Positions 16,457 to 24,375 of a DNA stretch of 24,375 nucleotides are shown piece after piece. Source of the stretch: a virus. The stretch's first letter is position 1. Each line of letters starts with the position of its first letter. The notes under the pieces are model-generated. The model did no database searches. It worked only from the letters and a program-made list of their open reading frames with translations, and was not told where the DNA came from. Both the position numbers and the translations under genes were made by a program. Location: positions 1 to 24,375 of the IMG/VR virus record IMGVR_UViG_3300048079_000088; one strand, 5' to 3'.

Positions 16457-16647
16457 GGGGTCACTCCAGTCCGACGCGACACAGCCATAATGGTCGTCAT
16501 TCTCGTACTCACCATCACTCCAGTCAAACGACCGGATGCGGCAATTATCGTTATGCGCTCAAGTGGTGTAGTACCCGGTGGTGGCGGTATGAACGGTTCA
16601 CCCAGCCCAAAGAAAAAGAACCAGAGCGTCGAGACAAGACCGTTCAT
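16453..16647 (-). CDS. small hydrophobic-start protein, 64 aa, unknown
   Basis: The frame overlaps both neighbours by four bases (ATGA). It opens MNGLVSTLWFFFFGLGEPFIPPPPG: a hydrophobic segment with FFFF followed by a proline run. The remainder (TTPLERITIIAASGRLTGVMVSTRMTTIMAVSRR, given here in parts) is basic and rich in T, M and V, and looks less protein-like than the neighbouring frame. A small membrane-associated protein is possible. I recognise no family. Confidence 0.6.
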   Translation of the reverse strand: MNGLVSTLWFFFFGLGEPFIPPPPGTTPLERITIIAASGRLTGVMVSTRMTTIMAVSRRTGVTP

Positions 16648-18512
16648 GGCCTGCCGATGCCCATCATTAGAAGTCCGCCGGGCGGAATAGCTGCGGTCGG
16701 TTCAGGTTTGATGGAGAACACTTGTCCGCCCCACCCATCGCCCGCCGTCACTGCGGTACTAAAATCCACCGATACAGTGCCCGTCGCGCCGGCCGTCGTG
16801 CGGATGGCTTCCGAGAAGCCGATGGACCCGTCCGCGCCAGTTATAGATGTTAGCCAGTGTTCTGTGTAGGCCGACGGATCGGTACCCGTGGCGATAATTG
16901 ACGCGTTGTTATTGTCCGCGTAGCCCAGGACAGCCACGACCAGGGCGTTGGCCGCGAGCGTCGTGATCCCAGTCAAGGGCGCGGGGTCCGCCGTGCCTGT
17001 GGCTGTGGCGCCCTGCACTTCGAGTGGTGTCTCCGTGGTGATCGCACCCCGGTACCCGCACGCGAGCGCGTAGGTGTCACCAGTCGCTGTGGACTTGTCG
17101 AACAATGGATTGGTCTCCGCGGCTGACGCGGCGCGCTTCCAGAAAATCCAATACCGCTCCACGGTCGACCGATCGAACGGCGTGCTCGTCGCCGCTGTCC
17201 ACCCAGTCATCGTGACTGAATCATCCACGTCCCTCACGAGTCCCATGATCATCAGAAGGTCGTTCGTTAAGTGAGCCGGTAGCGTCACGGTCACGTCCGC
17301 ACCCGTCGACGCATTGATGGCTGCTGCGCAGGCCGTAAACGTAACCTCTCCTGATCCTTCCGCAGGAGATGGTTTAAACGCAATCGCACCATACATCGCG
17401 CCAGTAAGACCCGTTACTGTCCAGCCCATTACACCGCCCGACGATCCAAACTGGCGACTAACCGCCATGAAATTGTTACTCGCGTCATCTTGGTTCAGTG
17501 TGGCGGTCTGATCTGCTCCCACTACCGGCGCTCCCGTCGATAAAGATTGAATATGGTCAAGCACCAAATCGTCAGCACCCACCCCAGTAACGGTAAGCTC
17601 AACTGGTGAAGTCGTATCGGGTGTATTCTCGGCTGTAAATTGCGGCGTGCCAACAGGAATTGTTTGATGCACTCCCGTCATAGACACAACACCCAGGGTC
17701 TGATACACAATCGTTCCACCCGTCCCAATCGTGCTCGTCACGGTTTGAGCCCCCGGGAGCGTCGCGCCCATCGCCAGCGAATAACCCGCGGCGCCGACCG
17801 CTGTCGTCACATCGTCAAACACATCCCACTGTTCGGTCATACTAGACCCGCCATAGGTCAAGGAAGTGCTATGGACAATGGCCCCGGAGTTGTTCCATCC
17901 CACGGCCCCAAACACGGCCCGGTTCGTGCTGCCCCCAGCCGTATGGGTCAACGAGAGGACTCGATCACCTGACACTTCTTCTGCGGACGTTGCGGTGTCG
18001 AACACGACAGACTGGTGCATCGCTAAAGGTGGCGCTGGCTCCGCGTCAGCTTCAGCGAACAGAATCACAGTGGACACTGCGACGCCGCTCAATAACTCAA
18101 TAGTGCAATGCGCCGTAAAAATCCCGCTGTTCATTTCGCCCAGTCGTTGAACCCCTGATGGCAAGTGGTAAGTAAGAACGTAGGCCCCGATCTCACTCCC
18201 CCCTCGTCGAGACCGAATTCCCCCTGTCGATTCACCTGTCGCGTGATAGCGCACTCCATCAAGAAAGACGTCAATAGAGATACGAAGCGTCGCTGTGTTG
18301 TCCCACACAGTTGAAGTGTCGCCTGTTGTCGGGCGTCGGATCTGAATCTGAATTGCTCTCGTCTGTCGGTCAAGCATCAACGACACAGTTTGAATTGACT
18401 GTCCCGTCGTCAACACGAACGAGGTATTTTCCACAAAACGAATTACCGCAGCCTCCAGTCGAACCGCGAACAGCAGACACGCGAGAGCGAACAATAATCT
18501 AGTAGATCGCAT
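16644..18512 (-). CDS. large exported beta-rich surface protein, 622 aa
   Basis: It begins MRSTRLLFALACLLFAVR followed by LEAAV, a clear Sec signal peptide with a likely A-x-A-type cut near residue 22. The rest is beta-rich: an N-terminal domain (about 23-155, VSLMLDRQTRAIQIQIRRP), a second domain from about 165-395 (VLSLTHTAGGSTNRAVFGAVGW, SLTYGGSSMTEQW) and a third from about 400 to 610 (FTACAAAINASTGADVTVTLPA, WIFWKRAASAAE, GWGGQVFSIKP). The second and third share a lectin-like sandwich rhythm, common in phage surface proteins. It ends PPGGLLMMGIGRP. It overlaps the upstream signal-peptide gene by 14 bases and the next gene by ATGA. A virion or host-surface adhesin is likely. Confidence 0.85.
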   Translation of the reverse strand: MRSTRLLFALACLLFAVRLEAAVIRFVENTSFVLTTGQSIQTVSLMLDRQTRAIQIQIRRPTTGDTSTVWDNTATLRISIDVFLDGVRYHATGESTGGIRSRRGGSEIGAYVLTYHLPSGVQRLGEMNSGIFTAHCTIELLSGVAVSTVILFAEADAEPAPPLAMHQSVVFDTATSAEEVSGDRVLSLTHTAGGSTNRAVFGAVGWNNSGAIVHSTSLTYGGSSMTEQWDVFDDVTTAVGAAGYSLAMGATLPGAQTVTSTIGTGGTIVYQTLGVVSMTGVHQTIPVGTPQFTAENTPDTTSPVELTVTGVGADDLVLDHIQSLSTGAPVVGADQTATLNQDDASNNFMAVSRQFGSSGGVMGWTVTGLTGAMYGAIAFKPSPAEGSGEVTFTACAAAINASTGADVTVTLPAHLTNDLLMIMGLVRDVDDSVTMTGWTAATSTPFDRSTVERYWIFWKRAASAAETNPLFDKSTATGDTYALACGYRGAITTETPLEVQGATATGTADPAPLTGITTLAANALVVAVLGYADNNNASIIATGTDPSAYTEHWLTSITGADGSIGFSEAIRTTAGATGTVSVDFSTAVTAGDGWGGQVFSIKPEPTAAIPPGGLLMMGIGRP

Positions 18513-20517
18513 AACCGATCCTTCCAGAAAGTTGCACGGCCGCGCTCGTGATCACACAGACACTGTCGCCCGTCGCGTTCGTGCGATTTATTTCCCCAAA
18601 ACCGGTACCTTCTCGAACACCCTGATTAGCCACGAAGTTGAAACCCTCTGCGGCCGTCGTTCCACCGGTCATGCCGGTCGTGCCCGTGCCGCAGGTCGCA
18701 CCCGTTCCGGAGATGAGGGCCACGTTGTTGATACCCGCCGTAAACAGAGTCATCGAACAGAACCGCACATGGCGTGCAGACACGCCGGTTACTAAAAGCG
18801 TGGTCGTAGCTGTGACCACGTCCACGTTAACCCAAGTGTCGCACACCGTAACGCCCAACATCAAGCCTGCTGTTGCGCCGCTCGTGAGACCACCGATCGC
18901 GACCCGGCCTGTAGGTGGGGCTGCCGCGTTGGCTGCGACCGCATCATTGTCCGTGTCCGGCGTCACACTGATGCTGTTGGCGGCAGTCTGCTGACCCTCA
19001 TTTGGCAGCGTCAGCACGTCTACGTCGTTATTCGTCGTGGTCTGCGAGATTGCGACGGTTGAATCGTTGCTGACCGTGACGCGGGGGATCCCCGCGCCGC
19101 CCGCGCCGGTTCCAGTGACAACAATCGACCCACCGAACTGTGCCACATTGAAGGGTTCATTGTCGGGAAAGGTTCCGACTGTGACCGTGCCGCTAACCGG
19201 TTGTGTGACCGCCGAGCCATCTACAACTAGAGCGTTCGTCGCCGTGACGTTCACACCGCGCTCATTGCCTGCCGCATCCCGAATGGTTCCGAACAGGTTA
19301 CGGTTCGCGGACATCCGTAAGTTACCGAATTGATTTTCGGTAATCGCGGTTGGCGTTACGTCATCAAACTGTCCCACGCCCTGCGCCGTCTGAATCCCCG
19401 CGCCAGTAGAGTTCAGAGCGTTGGCCGCTGACAAGAACGAAACGCCGGTTGCATCACTGATACTAACCTCTTGAACGCCGGTAGCGACCGTCGACACAGT
19501 TCCGCCAGCGATCTGATTCAAGTTGAAGGGCTCGTTGTCGGGGAACACGCCGACCGTCACGCTCGGCAACGTCAGCACGTCCACATCATTCGCCGAGCCA
19601 GTCTGCGAGAGCGTTGCCGTCACGGAGTCCGCACCAGAGGTCAGATCCCGGATGTCCAGGTTCGTCGCGCTAACCGGCTGCGTGACTGCGGACCCGTCCA
19701 CGACTAGAGCATTCGTCGCCGTAACATTCGCCCGACGCTCGTTACCAGCCCCGTCGCCCAGTTGAAACAGCTGCATCCGATTGGCCGAAATGCGGGACGC
19801 GGCCGCGCTATTTTCCGTCGCCGCGTTCGGTGCTGTGTCATCAAGTACATGACCCGAAAGATTGATGGCCGTCGAACCAAACGAGAACGCGGTATTGTCT
19901 GCGAAGCTCCCGCCAGGCGTACATCCCGAATCGCAAATGACGTTGACCGCGCCGGCCCCGTCACCGATAATGAATGTACCAGAGCCCGCGTTCGCAGTGA
20001 CGGTCCCGCTGATCGGTTGTGTGGAGGTTCCCGTAGGGTCCACCCGCAATGGATCTGTTGACGTACCGAATTCTACAGAACCACCGGAAGCTGCCTTCCG
20101 TAGGCTCATGCCCTGAAGATTTTGAAGTCCTCCCCCCGTATCCGCGTCAAAGGGCACAGCCAGCGCTGTCCCTGCTAGCTGATTCAGATTGAAAGGCTCG
20201 TTGTCAGGAAACGTCAGCACGTCTACGTCATTGTCGGTCGTCGTCTGAGATACTTTGAACAGCCACGCGACGGTATTCGCGGTGTTCCCCGGTTGCACCG
20301 TCCATGTACCGCTCTGCGTCACAGGCTGCGCACTATCGAATACGATACGACCCACTAACCGTGCGAGGTTATCTTCAAGATCAACTACGTTGTTGATACC
20401 CGTCTGATCAAACCTGACTGACCACGGAAAGTCGCCTCCGCGACCCTGCGAAACAATCTGGGCCTGCGCAGCGGAAGCGATAAACAGGCTGGCGAGAAGC
20501 AGCAAAAGTTTCTTCAT
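18499..20517 (-). CDS. large exported repeat protein, 672 aa
   Basis: The start at 20517 (MKKLLLLLASLFIASAAQAQ, a textbook signal peptide cut after AQA) is chosen over an upstream start at 20595 because it overlaps the previous stop as ATGA and yields the signal. The mature protein is built from repeats: FPDNEPFN occurs at about 103, 325 and 450; NDVDVLT at about 96, 310 and 497; and TATNALVVDGSAVTQPVS at 266 and 425, each preceded by a TEN...R-x-SANR...AGNER block. A final domain (about 515-672) has several cysteines (VTVCDTW, RFCSMT, GATCGTG, SVCVIT). The repeat style is that of phage fiber or surface proteins known from environmental phages. Whether it is part of the virion is not shown. 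Confidence 0.86.
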   Translation of the reverse strand: MKKLLLLLASLFIASAAQAQIVSQGRGGDFPWSVRFDQTGINNVVDLEDNLARLVGRIVFDSAQPVTQSGTWTVQPGNTANTVAWLFKVSQTTTDNDVDVLTFPDNEPFNLNQLAGTALAVPFDADTGGGLQNLQGMSLRKAASGGSVEFGTSTDPLRVDPTGTSTQPISGTVTANAGSGTFIIGDGAGAVNVICDSGCTPGGSFADNTAFSFGSTAINLSGHVLDDTAPNAATENSAAASRISANRMQLFQLGDGAGNERRANVTATNALVVDGSAVTQPVSATNLDIRDLTSGADSVTATLSQTGSANDVDVLTLPSVTVGVFPDNEPFNLNQIAGGTVSTVATGVQEVSISDATGVSFLSAANALNSTGAGIQTAQGVGQFDDVTPTAITENQFGNLRMSANRNLFGTIRDAAGNERGVNVTATNALVVDGSAVTQPVSGTVTVGTFPDNEPFNVAQFGGSIVVTGTGAGGAGIPRVTVSNDSTVAISQTTTNNDVDVLTLPNEGQQTAANSISVTPDTDNDAVAANAAAPPTGRVAIGGLTSGATAGLMLGVTVCDTWVNVDVVTATTTLLVTGVSARHVRFCSMTLFTAGINNVALISGTGATCGTGTTGMTGGTTAAEGFNFVANQGVREGTGFGEINRTNATGDSVCVITSAAVQLSGRIGYAIY

Positions 20518-20816
20518 ACGTATCCCCACAGGTGACCGACGACGCCGGCCCCCGATGCAAACCACTTTACGCCGAGCGCAGGACGAAATGGCCACTCGTA
20601 AGGCTGCTCACCGCCAGCCGGAATCTCCAACTCCACGAGATTGGCAAGTGCGGTGTTCTCCACCGTCACGGTCACGGTCACGCCCGACGTGTTCTTGAAG
20701 TGCGTGCCCAAGACCCACGCTTGAGCCGCGGTTACTACCGTGGAAACGGTCGGAACAGCTACGCCCGGTCCCGTATCCAAGTTAGGTGCGGCAACGTTTG
20801 AAAATGGCCAAGCCAT
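20514..20816 (-). CDS. small virion-type protein (unknown), 100 aa
   Basis: The ATG at 20816 has AAAGGAG 5-7 bases before it, so the longer reading from 20849 is not needed. The protein opens MAWPFSNVAAPNLDTGPGV, then AAQAWVLGTHFKNTSGVTVTVTVENTALANLVELEI and ends VVGHLWGYV. It is soluble and beta-rich, like a small Ig or sandwich domain used on virion surfaces. It lies between a 70-aa conserved gene and the repeat protein, whose start it overlaps (ATGA), so it may be an accessory of that protein. Family not recognised. Confidence 0.8.
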   Translation of the reverse strand: MAWPFSNVAAPNLDTGPGVAVPTVSTVVTAAQAWVLGTHFKNTSGVTVTVTVENTALANLVELEIPAGGEQPYEWPFRPALGVKWFASGAGVVGHLWGYV

Positions 20817-21048: not shown

Positions 21049-22479
21049 CTAATCATTGGGCGACAGATCCGGATCAAGATCCGGCTCAGGAGCCAGGGCC
21101 TTGTCTTTGATGATGGCAGCTCGTTCTGCGGCGGCGTCAATCCCTTCTCGTCCCCAGCCGCCGGTAGTGATGAGGTTCCACCAAGTCTCGAAGCTGATCT
21201 CTCCGGCCTGGAGTGCAGTGAGTGCGACCTGGATTTCTTGCGCCGACGCTTTGACATTCAGATACTCCTTGTTAAGTTCAACCTTGCCCTTGGCGTCAGT
21301 CAGTATCATCTCCACACCGGCCCACCACGACACCATCTGGAGCACCAACGAGAAGCCCTGCTCCAGCGCCTGCGCTACCGTCCGCAGCGTAGCGTGTTCG
21401 TCGCTGTGGCGCATCTTCACCGCGGACGCTGTCTCCTGGACGACGGCCTGATCTTCTAGGAGGCGGCCTCCTAGAACAGCCATTTGTTTTTCTTTCTTGT
21501 CCATCGCGGTGACGAGGGAGGCGAGCCCCGAGCCGCTGAACTCCAACATGCCCGCCTGACCCTGCGCCTCGAGTTCCCACACCACGCTGGGACCTATCTT
21601 CATGGCGCCGGTAGAATTTCCCCGCACGCCCGCGACCCACGGCGTGGGAAGTGCGACAAGATGGAGACCCCACTCGTGGTCAACTGAGTTCCGGAAGTGC
21701 GCCAGGTTGACGTCCGCCAAGTCAATAAGCGGCGGCTGCTCGATCTCCGGCGTGCAGTGCATCGCACCCAAGAAGACAAACGGGATGAAGTCCAGCGCGA
21801 TCCCTCGGCGCGTAAGAATCACTGGGCTACCGAACTCCACAAACCCCTTCGACCGTTCTGTAGACTCACGCCACAACTGCACCAAGCACACGTTCTCCTT
21901 GATCTCCAGGACGCGATACTGTTCAACACAATCATTCACGAACTCGTCCTTGGCGTTGGGCACTTCCACGATCTCGTGGAGCACAACCATTGTCAGGACT
22001 TCGTCACCCGCACGGCGCTCCACGCGCCAATTAATAATGTCCTCCGAACGATAGCCAATGCAGTATGGACGTGCGGCCGCGTTCGTCAGGCCGTTGTACT
22101 GCTCCGGCATATCGACCAGCACGCCATACCGTGCGACCAACATCAACTCGGCGCCGGCCTCCTGCGTGAAGGACTCGAAAGAAACGTTGCTCAACGTCAA
22201 GTCTTTCAAATATGACTCAAACGCTTTGGGAAACTCCTCCACCTGTGGCGCTTCTTGGAAGATGCCTCCCACCATCCCTTGCACCGTGCGCTTCGTCGCG
22301 TTGAAGAAATTACCTCGCGCCCGATACGAGGAGTTCATGTCCGCATCGCCGCCCGGCAAGTCGGGGACGTACTTGGAACCCCGTTCGATGACCGCATCTC
22401 GGCCGCCGAAGCAGTCCCGCAGGCGCTGCCACTTCGCGACCATGTCGCGGTAATCTTTTCGTTCAGTATTGACGGGCAT
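21049..22479 (-). CDS. portal protein, DUF4055 type
   Basis: The 476-aa protein directly follows terL and shows the features of the DUF4055 portal group: YRDMVAKWQRLRDCFGGRDAVIERGSKYVPDLPGG near the start, SYRARGNFFNATKRTVQGMVGGIF (about 51-74), PYCIGYRSEDIINWR (about 137-151), FIPFVFLGAMHCTPEIEQPPLIDLADVNLAHFRNSVDHEWGLH (about 232-274) and a helical tail. It forms the ring at one capsid vertex through which DNA enters and leaves and to which the adaptor binds. It starts 3 bases after the terminase stop and ends just before the 70-aa gene. Confidence 0.91.
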   Translation of the reverse strand: MPVNTERKDYRDMVAKWQRLRDCFGGRDAVIERGSKYVPDLPGGDADMNSSYRARGNFFNATKRTVQGMVGGIFQEAPQVEEFPKAFESYLKDLTLSNVSFESFTQEAGAELMLVARYGVLVDMPEQYNGLTNAAARPYCIGYRSEDIINWRVERRAGDEVLTMVVLHEIVEVPNAKDEFVNDCVEQYRVLEIKENVCLVQLWRESTERSKGFVEFGSPVILTRRGIALDFIPFVFLGAMHCTPEIEQPPLIDLADVNLAHFRNSVDHEWGLHLVALPTPWVAGVRGNSTGAMKIGPSVVWELEAQGQAGMLEFSGSGLASLVTAMDKKEKQMAVLGGRLLEDQAVVQETASAVKMRHSDEHATLRTVAQALEQGFSLVLQMVSWWAGVEMILTDAKGKVELNKEYLNVKASAQEIQVALTALQAGEISFETWWNLITTGGWGREGIDAAAERAAIIKDKALAPEPDLDPDLSPND

Positions 22480-22482
22480 AGT

Positions 22483-23985
22483 TTATCCCCACACCGCTTC
22501 GCGCATGGACACCGGTTTTGGCTCCAAGAGCACTGCGTTGAACGCACACGAGGAGGCATCCACTTGATCGTCGTGCTTGGCCGTAGGGAACCCGCACAAC
22601 TCAGTGATGTACTTCTCATTCCACGGCGCTTTCACAAGGTAGACGTTACCCGCCTGCACTTGCGCGCGGAATGGCTTCGCACGCGTCACCTTCGATCCGC
22701 TCGTTGGTACCCCGAGGTAGTCCCAGCCTTTGAGCATCTTCGCGCGGGCTTTGATGACGGTCAGACCAGACGACCCGCCTTCTTTTTCTTCACGCACAGG
22801 GACAGACCGCCCATCGAGTTCAGCCGTCGTGTAGATCAACTTGTCCACCCCATCGGGGCCGAGTTGATCGCGTTGCACGTCCTCGACGTAGTACAGGCCC
22901 TTATCTTCGCTGATCTTGACGCCGACGGTCCAATCGCCTTTGCCTTCTGAGCCTGCGGTGTCCCATCCACGCACCCGGCGCGCATACGTGGGCGCGGCGT
23001 CAATGAACTTGAAGTGCTCTCGCTTGAAGAGGCCACCTTCCCCAGGCGCGGGGCGCTGCTGCAACTGACCGGCGGTACCATAGTCGTCCAGATCGAGTTC
23101 CAGTTGTTTGACCTTGGTCTCGTCAAAGACCTCAGGCCACAGGAGCTCCCCTTCCACGGTGCGTGGGTCGCGCGGGTCGGGGACCCATTTCTCGTTGGTC
23201 TTGTGCAGTGTGCAGCGTTGCTCCGCCGGCACCGCGTAGACCTCGCCTTCGGGCAGTGGCCATACGACACCGGGACAGACGCATTTCTCGTAGCGCATTG
23301 GGAAGCAGACGTGCAGCCAGCCTCCTCGATTCAGCAAGTACCCCGGCAGATCTTCCTCGTGCAGTCGCTGCGCAATGATGACGATGGCCACTCCACGCGC
23401 CACCCCGCGAGTAGAGACTGTCTTATCGAACCAATTGTTCGCCGCCTTCCGCTCGGGTTCAGACTGCGATTGCTCCGCCGTGATCACATCGTCAATGACG
23501 ATGAGGTCCGGATGCTCGCCCGTGAGGGCGCCGCCCACTGATGTGGCGATGCGCCATCCGCCGGTGGTCGTATTGAACCGGATTTTGGTGTCCTGGTCGT
23601 CGCGCAACTGCACATCGAACAGCGATTGATACCACGCGCTGTTGATCAAGTCGCGGACTTTGCGGTTCTGATCGATAGTAATGGCAGAGGAGTAGGAGGC
23701 CGTGACGACGCGCTTCTTGCTGTCAAGGGTCCATTGCCACGCGGGCCAGAGCACACTAACAAGCAGCGACTTCATGCACCCGGGCGGTACATTGATGATG
23801 ACGCGTTTGGTCTTCCCGAGAGTAACTGATTCGAGAACTTTGCAGAGCTCTCGAATATGCCAGTTGTCTTTGAATTCCTGAGAGGGCTCGATGATGCTCC
23901 ACGCCTCGAGAACGAACGCGTGCAACGACTTCTTCAGCCGTCGCTTTTCTTTTGCTTGATCCATGCGTGCTGTATCCGCCAGCAC
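22483..23985 (-). CDS. terL: terminase large subunit
   Basis: The 500-aa protein has the two-part layout of TerL. ATPase: NVPPGCMKSLLVS as Walker A (residues about 65-77), LIVIDD as Walker B (161-166), IIAQRLHEEDLPG (about 203-215) as coupling motif. Nuclease: RGWDTAGSEGKGDWTVG with D342, VREEKEGGSSG (about 397-407), and AKHDDQVDASS (469-479). It packages DNA into proheads and cuts it. The annotated start is GTG without a clear ribosome site. ATG at 23964 is an alternative. In-frame CTG at 24012 has GGAG 7 bases upstream and adds LITKDERAD, a sequence usual at TerL N-termini. No small subunit is visible, so it is probably outside the window to the right. Confidence 0.96.
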   Translation of the reverse strand: MLADTARMDQAKEKRRLKKSLHAFVLEAWSIIEPSQEFKDNWHIRELCKVLESVTLGKTKRVIINVPPGCMKSLLVSVLWPAWQWTLDSKKRVVTASYSSAITIDQNRKVRDLINSAWYQSLFDVQLRDDQDTKIRFNTTTGGWRIATSVGGALTGEHPDLIVIDDVITAEQSQSEPERKAANNWFDKTVSTRGVARGVAIVIIAQRLHEEDLPGYLLNRGGWLHVCFPMRYEKCVCPGVVWPLPEGEVYAVPAEQRCTLHKTNEKWVPDPRDPRTVEGELLWPEVFDETKVKQLELDLDDYGTAGQLQQRPAPGEGGLFKREHFKFIDAAPTYARRVRGWDTAGSEGKGDWTVGVKISEDKGLYYVEDVQRDQLGPDGVDKLIYTTAELDGRSVPVREEKEGGSSGLTVIKARAKMLKGWDYLGVPTSGSKVTRAKPFRAQVQAGNVYLVKAPWNEKYITELCGFPTAKHDDQVDASSCAFNAVLLEPKPVSMREAVWG

Positions 23986-24044: not shown

Positions 24045-24096
24045 GCCGCCTGATGAGTCAATGACCGGTACGCTCGCGGCCAAGTCATCAGGCGGC
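24045..24096. repeat. 12-bp perfect inverted repeat between tmRNA and terL
   Basis: GCCGCCTGATGA at 24045-24056 and TCATCAGGCGGC at 24085-24096 are exact reverse complements, with a 28-base spacer. In minus-strand RNA it forms a long hairpin starting 11 bases after the CCA end of the tmRNA. No U-tract follows, so it is not a typical terminator. It could be a processing signal, a terminase recognition site, or part of an attachment site. Confidence 0.6.
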
Positions 24097-24107
24097 GCTT
24101 TCAAATT

Positions 24108-24375
24108 TGGTGGAGCTGGCGGGAATCGAACCCGCGTCCGAACAACTCACTTTGTGTTTCTCAACGTGCGTTGCCGCCTCGCCCGGCGCGCGGGGATCAC
24201 AAGTGCGTCTTGGTTCGTCCGTGCCTTCACGAACTAGCCGTCACGGAATGTCGGTCCGTCCCGCTGTCTCGGCGCGGCGGGTGACCGGATGACAGGTGTT
24301 AGGCCGCCATCGGGAGTGATTCGAGTTCCGCAGTTAAGGGAGTCGGCCATCAGTTTACGACATGATGACAGGTCG
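24108..24375 (-). ncRNA. ssrA: tmRNA (ssrA), 3' portion, 5' part beyond the window
   Basis: The minus strand ends in CAGCTCC-A-CCA (acceptor strand with encoded CCA at 24108). It is preceded by GGACGCGGGTTCGATTCCCGC, the nearly invariant tmRNA T-arm, distinct from any tRNA because no anticodon arm precedes it. At the right edge pseudoknot PK1 can be read: CGAC/GTCG (24375-24372 with 24361-24358) and GTCATCA/TGATGGC (24369-24363 with 24352-24346, one G-U). Next come TTAACT and the tag reading frame, then several stem regions, including GTTCGT/ACGAAC, as expected for PK2-PK4. The visible GGCTAGTT matches the E. coli molecule at the equivalent place. It rescues stalled ribosomes with SmpB. Whether phage-encoded or host DNA at an integration site is unresolved. 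Confidence 0.9.
24299..24331 (-). other. tmRNA proteolysis tag reading frame
   Basis: From the resume codon GCG (24331-24329) the frame gives A-E-L-E-S-L-P-M-A-A and TAA. The bases before it, TTAACT, have T at -5 and A at -4 as required for correct resumption. The ending M-A-A fits the hydrophobic C-terminus recognised by ClpXP-type proteases. The tag lies 15 bases past PK1, in the canonical position. Confidence 0.82.

Follow-up and report, generated by a model that had tools for sequence, protein, structure and literature searches.

A one-piece tmRNA gene with an unusual tag upstream of the terminase gene in a metagenomic viral record

Trans-translation follows a well-described series of steps, in which tmRNA is charged with alanine, enters the ribosome in an SmpB-dependent manner and then directs resumption of translation, addition of a peptide tag and release. 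Among the possible tag endings, LAA is recognised by ClpXP. In phages, a survey of 18,146 genomes found tmRNA genes in 402 of them (about 2.3%). These comprised 133 unique structures, of which 53 were two-piece, and the roles considered for such RNAs were ribosome upkeep or degradation of host proteins (PMC9004378). Phage tmRNAs can accordingly be called uncommon, but the rarity that the original prediction attached to them is moderately true at most. In this line, tmRNAs are also carried by virulent phages of Bradyrhizobium elkanii (PMC12656738), whereas our reading of the literature found no tests of phage tmRNA function. Phage tmRNAs are thus already known, and it is the tag and the position of the tmRNA described here that are its notable features.

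The sequence analysed, hereafter the window, derives from a tailed phage and makes up an entire IMG/VR viral record (24,375 bp, linear by its classification); as the window is the whole record, nothing can be read 5' of the tmRNA. The main features of this end of the record are the following:

24108..24375, minus strand: tmRNA gene, one-piece form, with its 5' end off the record (RF00023, 59.1 bits, and descriptor)
24346..24375, minus strand: pseudoknot PK1 (cmscan, sequence reading and descriptor)
24299..24331, minus strand: resume codon (GCG) and tag AELESLPMAA closed by a TAA stop, with TAACT just before (cmscan, frame reading and descriptor)
24112..24135, minus strand: T-arm GCGGG-TTCGATT-CCCGC (24135-24119) and 3' acceptor strand CAGCTCC (24118-24112) (cmscan; the 3'-terminal 93 nt alone score 47.2 bits)
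24110-24108, minus strand: encoded CCA (cmscan)
24045..24096, minus strand: perfect 12-bp inverted repeat GCCGCCTGATGA/TCATCAGGCGGC with 28 nt between its arms, lying between tmRNA and terL
22483..23985, minus strand: terminase large subunit (TerL), 500 aa, with a GTG start or an ATG at 23964 (PF17289; phrog_38, E 5e-94)
21049..22479, minus strand: portal protein, DUF4055 (phrog_145, E 4e-123)

When compared with the one-piece ssrA of bacteria (RF00023), the window tmRNA keeps the same order of PK1, resume site, ten-codon tag, pseudoknot region, T-arm and encoded CCA, but differs in a divergent mRNA-like half, in a tag that is not of the ANDxxxALAA kind and in its location on a phage contig. 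The covariance search that had been proposed with the original prediction was run with cmscan on the whole window, and its sole Rfam match was the tmRNA family RF00023 at 24375-24108 on the minus strand, with 59.1 bits against a cut-off (GA) of 47 (E 5e-21). The alignment spans positions 51-374 of the model, passes through PK1 and the resume site, and lacks model positions 1-50 alone at the 5' side; since the record stops inside the gene, the tmRNA is incomplete by about 50 model positions at its 5' end. Stem 1 of PK1 (CGAC/GTCG) pairs 24375-24372 with 24361-24358 in 4 bp, and stem 2 (GTCATCA/TGATGGC) pairs 24369-24363 with 24352-24346 in seven pairs including one G-U. The tag follows in frame as ten codons and a stop (24331-24299), and both its length of ten residues and the UAACU-GC resume context are common to several genomic tmRNAs. 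In the 3' acceptor strand U70 is present, whereas the position of G3 falls off the record, which ends 5' of PK1. Two standard approaches were silent for reasons that could be expected: ARAGORN made no tmRNA call on the window because the 5' tRNA-like half is missing from the record, and minimum free energy folding was uninformative (z -0.22) because the RNA is pseudoknotted. Altogether, the tmRNA at 24108..24375 on the minus strand is confirmed as genuine and of the one-piece form, and the structural reading of the original prediction (PK1, resume context, tag, T-arm and encoded CCA) holds for a gene that is 5'-incomplete.

The score is distributed unevenly along the RNA, with 47.2 of the 59.1 bits contributed by the 3' 93 nt by themselves. 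For this reason the mRNA-like part was tested separately, and we considered whether only the last 40-90 nt derive from a tmRNA, as an att-like fragment of ssrA, with PK1 and tag arising by chance. Consistent with such a fragment, positions 24150-24375, which leave out the 3' 42 nt, gave by themselves no Rfam match at E<=10, and a home-made covariance model (R1), for which 12 other one-piece tmRNAs supplied the segment from PK1 to the tag, gave 7.4 bits (E 4.6) and ranked this site fourth among the window matches, a result too weak alone. These low scores indicate that the mRNA-like half is divergent in sequence. However, the Rfam alignment does continue through PK1 and the resume site, and the architecture itself could be searched with a descriptor, which asks for a 4-bp PK1 stem 1, a loop of 8-13 nt, T[AT]AA and a stem 2 of at least five pairs, followed after 22-29 nt by TA[AG]NN-GCN and by 8-15 codons ending in GCN GCN and a stop. 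It has a match at the window tmRNA, with stem 1 CGAC/GTCG, a stem 2 of seven pairs and a spacing of 26 nt, so that PK1, resume site and an AA-ending tag with its stop lie at canonical spacing. The descriptor also matches 8 of 14 loci with a known one-piece tmRNA (two of the eight being identical), and it has no match in 4.26 Mb of background, a zero that is only descriptive because the window and host examples were already known when the descriptor ranges were chosen. Leaving out one of two rules, T[AT]AA or AA-end, still yields no background match, and leaving out both yields 16. A chance origin of the architecture at this site is very unlikely, and a mere ssrA fragment is scarcely credible as an explanation of the locus.

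The tag was the second feature singled out from the sequence as unusual, and this view is borne out by wider comparisons, since AELESLPMAA occurs in no other tmRNA found among 84,980 species genomes and 2.9 million viral contigs. In the species genomes, a degenerate pattern of the tag had two matches, neither called a tmRNA by ARAGORN, and both loci (L006 and L007) were rejected, the real tmRNAs of those genomes being elsewhere; tag patterns found nothing in the viral contigs. Moreover, when the RNA was compared by BLAST with 398 genomes from a single phylum, the best matches barely exceeded the generic 3' end. The lack of a known host counterpart fits a diverged gene borne by a phage, and may also reflect a host that has not been sampled.

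Among the phage tmRNAs recovered in this analysis, intact ones whose 3' ends match that of the window tmRNA are mostly permuted. The permuted two-piece tmRNAs of RF04321 (for example those of Stenotrophomonas DLP_6, Xanthomonas X1, QDWS359, L221 and L227) share with the window tmRNA a near-identical T-arm and acceptor end, and the tag of L227, AKDEPFALPMAA, likewise ends in PMAA. In QDWS359 and L221 the tmRNA also lies near terL, but downstream of it, whereas that of the window lies upstream. A permuted form was rejected for the window tmRNA, whose tag lies 5' of the T-arm with no permutation and whose RF04321 score of 34.6 bits is below the cut-off of 47. Compared with the documented phage tmRNAs (PMC9004378, PMC12656738), the window tmRNA similarly lies on a phage contig, whose close relatives are without integration genes, but it heads the packaging genes, carries an unusual tag and sits in an incomplete record. 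This survey of related RNAs also left some observations in their own right. Seven isolate phage records (L008, L010, L011, L013, L014, L015 and L016), namely Stenotrophomonas DLP_6 and QDWS359, Xanthomonas X1, Rb1 and XacN1, Alcaligenes QDWS595 and Bordetella PHB04, contain permuted tmRNAs, at about 1444-1900 of each locus, that are absent from their annotation, and the annotation of QDWS359 places a hypothetical protein antisense across the RNA. Other viral tmRNAs have odd tags, which include AKDEPFALPMAA (L227:2654-2966), a 26-aa tag ending in AAAA in a one-piece tmRNA of 256 nt (L234:8935-9190), and, at L224:1471-1915, L240:6804-7295 and L245:2949-3369, the tag GATIYDEMINGLQVATSERVSGLVMA given by ARAGORN and AMAAAAGR endings.

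The question of whose tmRNA this is depends on its surroundings, with terL on the 3' side and the end of the record on the 5' side. The CCA of the tmRNA is followed after 122 nt by the GTG of the co-directional terL (143 nt to the ATG at 23964), in agreement with the distance of about 120 bases on the same strand that had been noticed at first sight. The inverted repeat in this interval has a fold z of -1.9 and no T run, and its exact sequence does not recur in the window; a role in processing or transcription is possible for it. The minus-strand run of phage genes goes on from terL and portal through head morphogenesis, scaffold (phrog_206), major capsid (phrog_283) and tail (phrog_158) genes to a 1434-aa protein with TIG/LamG; a small terminase gene (terS) was not identified in the window. 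Between the portal and head genes are found two large proteins of 622 and 698 aa (16644-18512 and 18499-20595) that have neither a PHROG match nor a counterpart in the sister records used for comparison.

A phage group was gathered by portal- and terL-based scans, and members such as G005, G010, G011, G014, G018, G028 and G001 show the structural module in the same order as the window. Two of them, G010 and G011 (57.9 and 57.1 kb), look like circular genomes because their two ends repeat each other exactly over 123 and 99 bp, whereas the terminal repeat of G028 (54.5 kb) is imperfect. The replication genes found jointly in G010 and G028, among them those for DNA polymerase, helicase, primase and DNA ligase, are typical of virulent phages. 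Neither a tyrosine integrase (PF00589) nor a resolvase-type recombinase (PF00239) was found in the window, a partial genome, or in its close relatives, matches to the former occurring solely in more distant records. The lineage looks non-integrating, and the lack of an integrase beside the tmRNA, already pointed out in the original prediction, extends to these relatives. With regard to packaging, the TerL of the window is 54-59% identical to its relatives and belongs to phrog_38, as against phrog_2 in the closest structural relatives, a mismatch that makes the packaging end of the window genome mosaic. The packaging gene beside the tmRNA is thus swapped relative to phages with otherwise the same structural module. 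No tmRNA was found in 81 related records, where two weak RF00023 matches of 17 and 18 nt were discarded (in G020 the T-arm of a tRNA-like sequence, in G076 a similar 18-nt match that is probably also a T-arm), and protein-coding sequence fills the stretch that precedes terL in the terL relatives.

These data bear on three possible origins of the gene. Phages commonly integrate at ssrA, and the tmRNA could be that of a host with a prophage at its 3' end, so that the record would cover one edge of the prophage and the integrase would lie past its open left end. Phage DNA would then begin immediately after the CCA, just as it directly follows the tmRNA 3' end in prophages at host ssrA; several phage records (LMessi, PhiR12_5) contain just the 3' end of ssrA beside an integrase, and the relatives of the window phage have no tmRNA. 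In the window, however, the supposed edge carries terL instead of an integrase gene, attP would have to sit right before terL, the window and its close relatives lack both types of recombinase, the 3' end is not repeated elsewhere within the window (whose left end is open), and the tag is found in no sampled host, all of which makes a prophage edge unlikely. An assembly chimera, in which a phage contig was wrongly extended at its end by a bacterial tmRNA fragment, would suit a tmRNA placed at the extreme end of a metagenomic contig and unique within its phage group, but about 120 nt separate it from terL, and tmRNA 14-mers reveal no repeat common to the tmRNA and the rest of the window that could explain a false join; we consider this origin highly improbable.

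We favour, as the probable origin, a phage-encoded one-piece tmRNA gained by the lineage of the window upstream of terL. This reading draws on the RF00023 score above cut-off together with a PK1/resume/tag architecture missing from the background, on the co-directional placement before terL in a phage structural module with conserved synteny, on close sisters without integrase or resolvase, two of them circular, in a group with replication genes, on the lack of a host tmRNA with this tag in the species genomes, and on precedents of other phages with a tmRNA near terL (QDWS359, L221) or with documented tmRNAs (PMC9004378, PMC12656738). It is weakened by a record that ends inside the gene with nothing phage-like visible 5' of it, by the related records without tmRNA and the protein-coding stretch before terL in its relatives, by the missing terS and by the open left end, beyond which an integrase could sit. 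The option of a tmRNA carried by the phage, initially proposed as worth testing, is better supported than the prophage alternative, by the recombinase-free sisters, two of them circular, by the replication genes of the group and by the tag absent from sampled hosts, though short of proof, with a record that ends inside the tmRNA and 81 related records lacking the gene.

As for its action, transcription of the tmRNA would run the same way as that of the late genes, and its strand and position suggest expression together with them. Host enzymes would then mature the RNA and charge it with alanine (U70 is present, and G3 lies off the record), and host SmpB and tmRNA would enter stalled ribosomes. 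The ribosome would resume at GCG, add AELESLPMAA and release at UAA, and the outcome during infection would be that ribosomes are freed and incomplete proteins marked for destruction. Proteolysis is the likely fate of the tagged proteins because their MAA end is close to the LAA recognised by ClpXP. A bolder proposal, that a virulent phage evolved its own tmRNA with late expression and a tag unlike those of sampled hosts, sending proteins rescued late in infection to a protease route other than that used for the host's own tag, or sparing them from it, is one that we regard as quite doubtful.

In practical terms, this case illustrates that when a contig end truncates a divergent tmRNA, ARAGORN misses the gene and Rfam gives it only a moderate score. 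For the biology of these phages, a one-piece tmRNA that heads a late module and carries a tag found in no sampled host would make it possible to test whether phages redirect ribosome rescue and tagging or merely supplement them.
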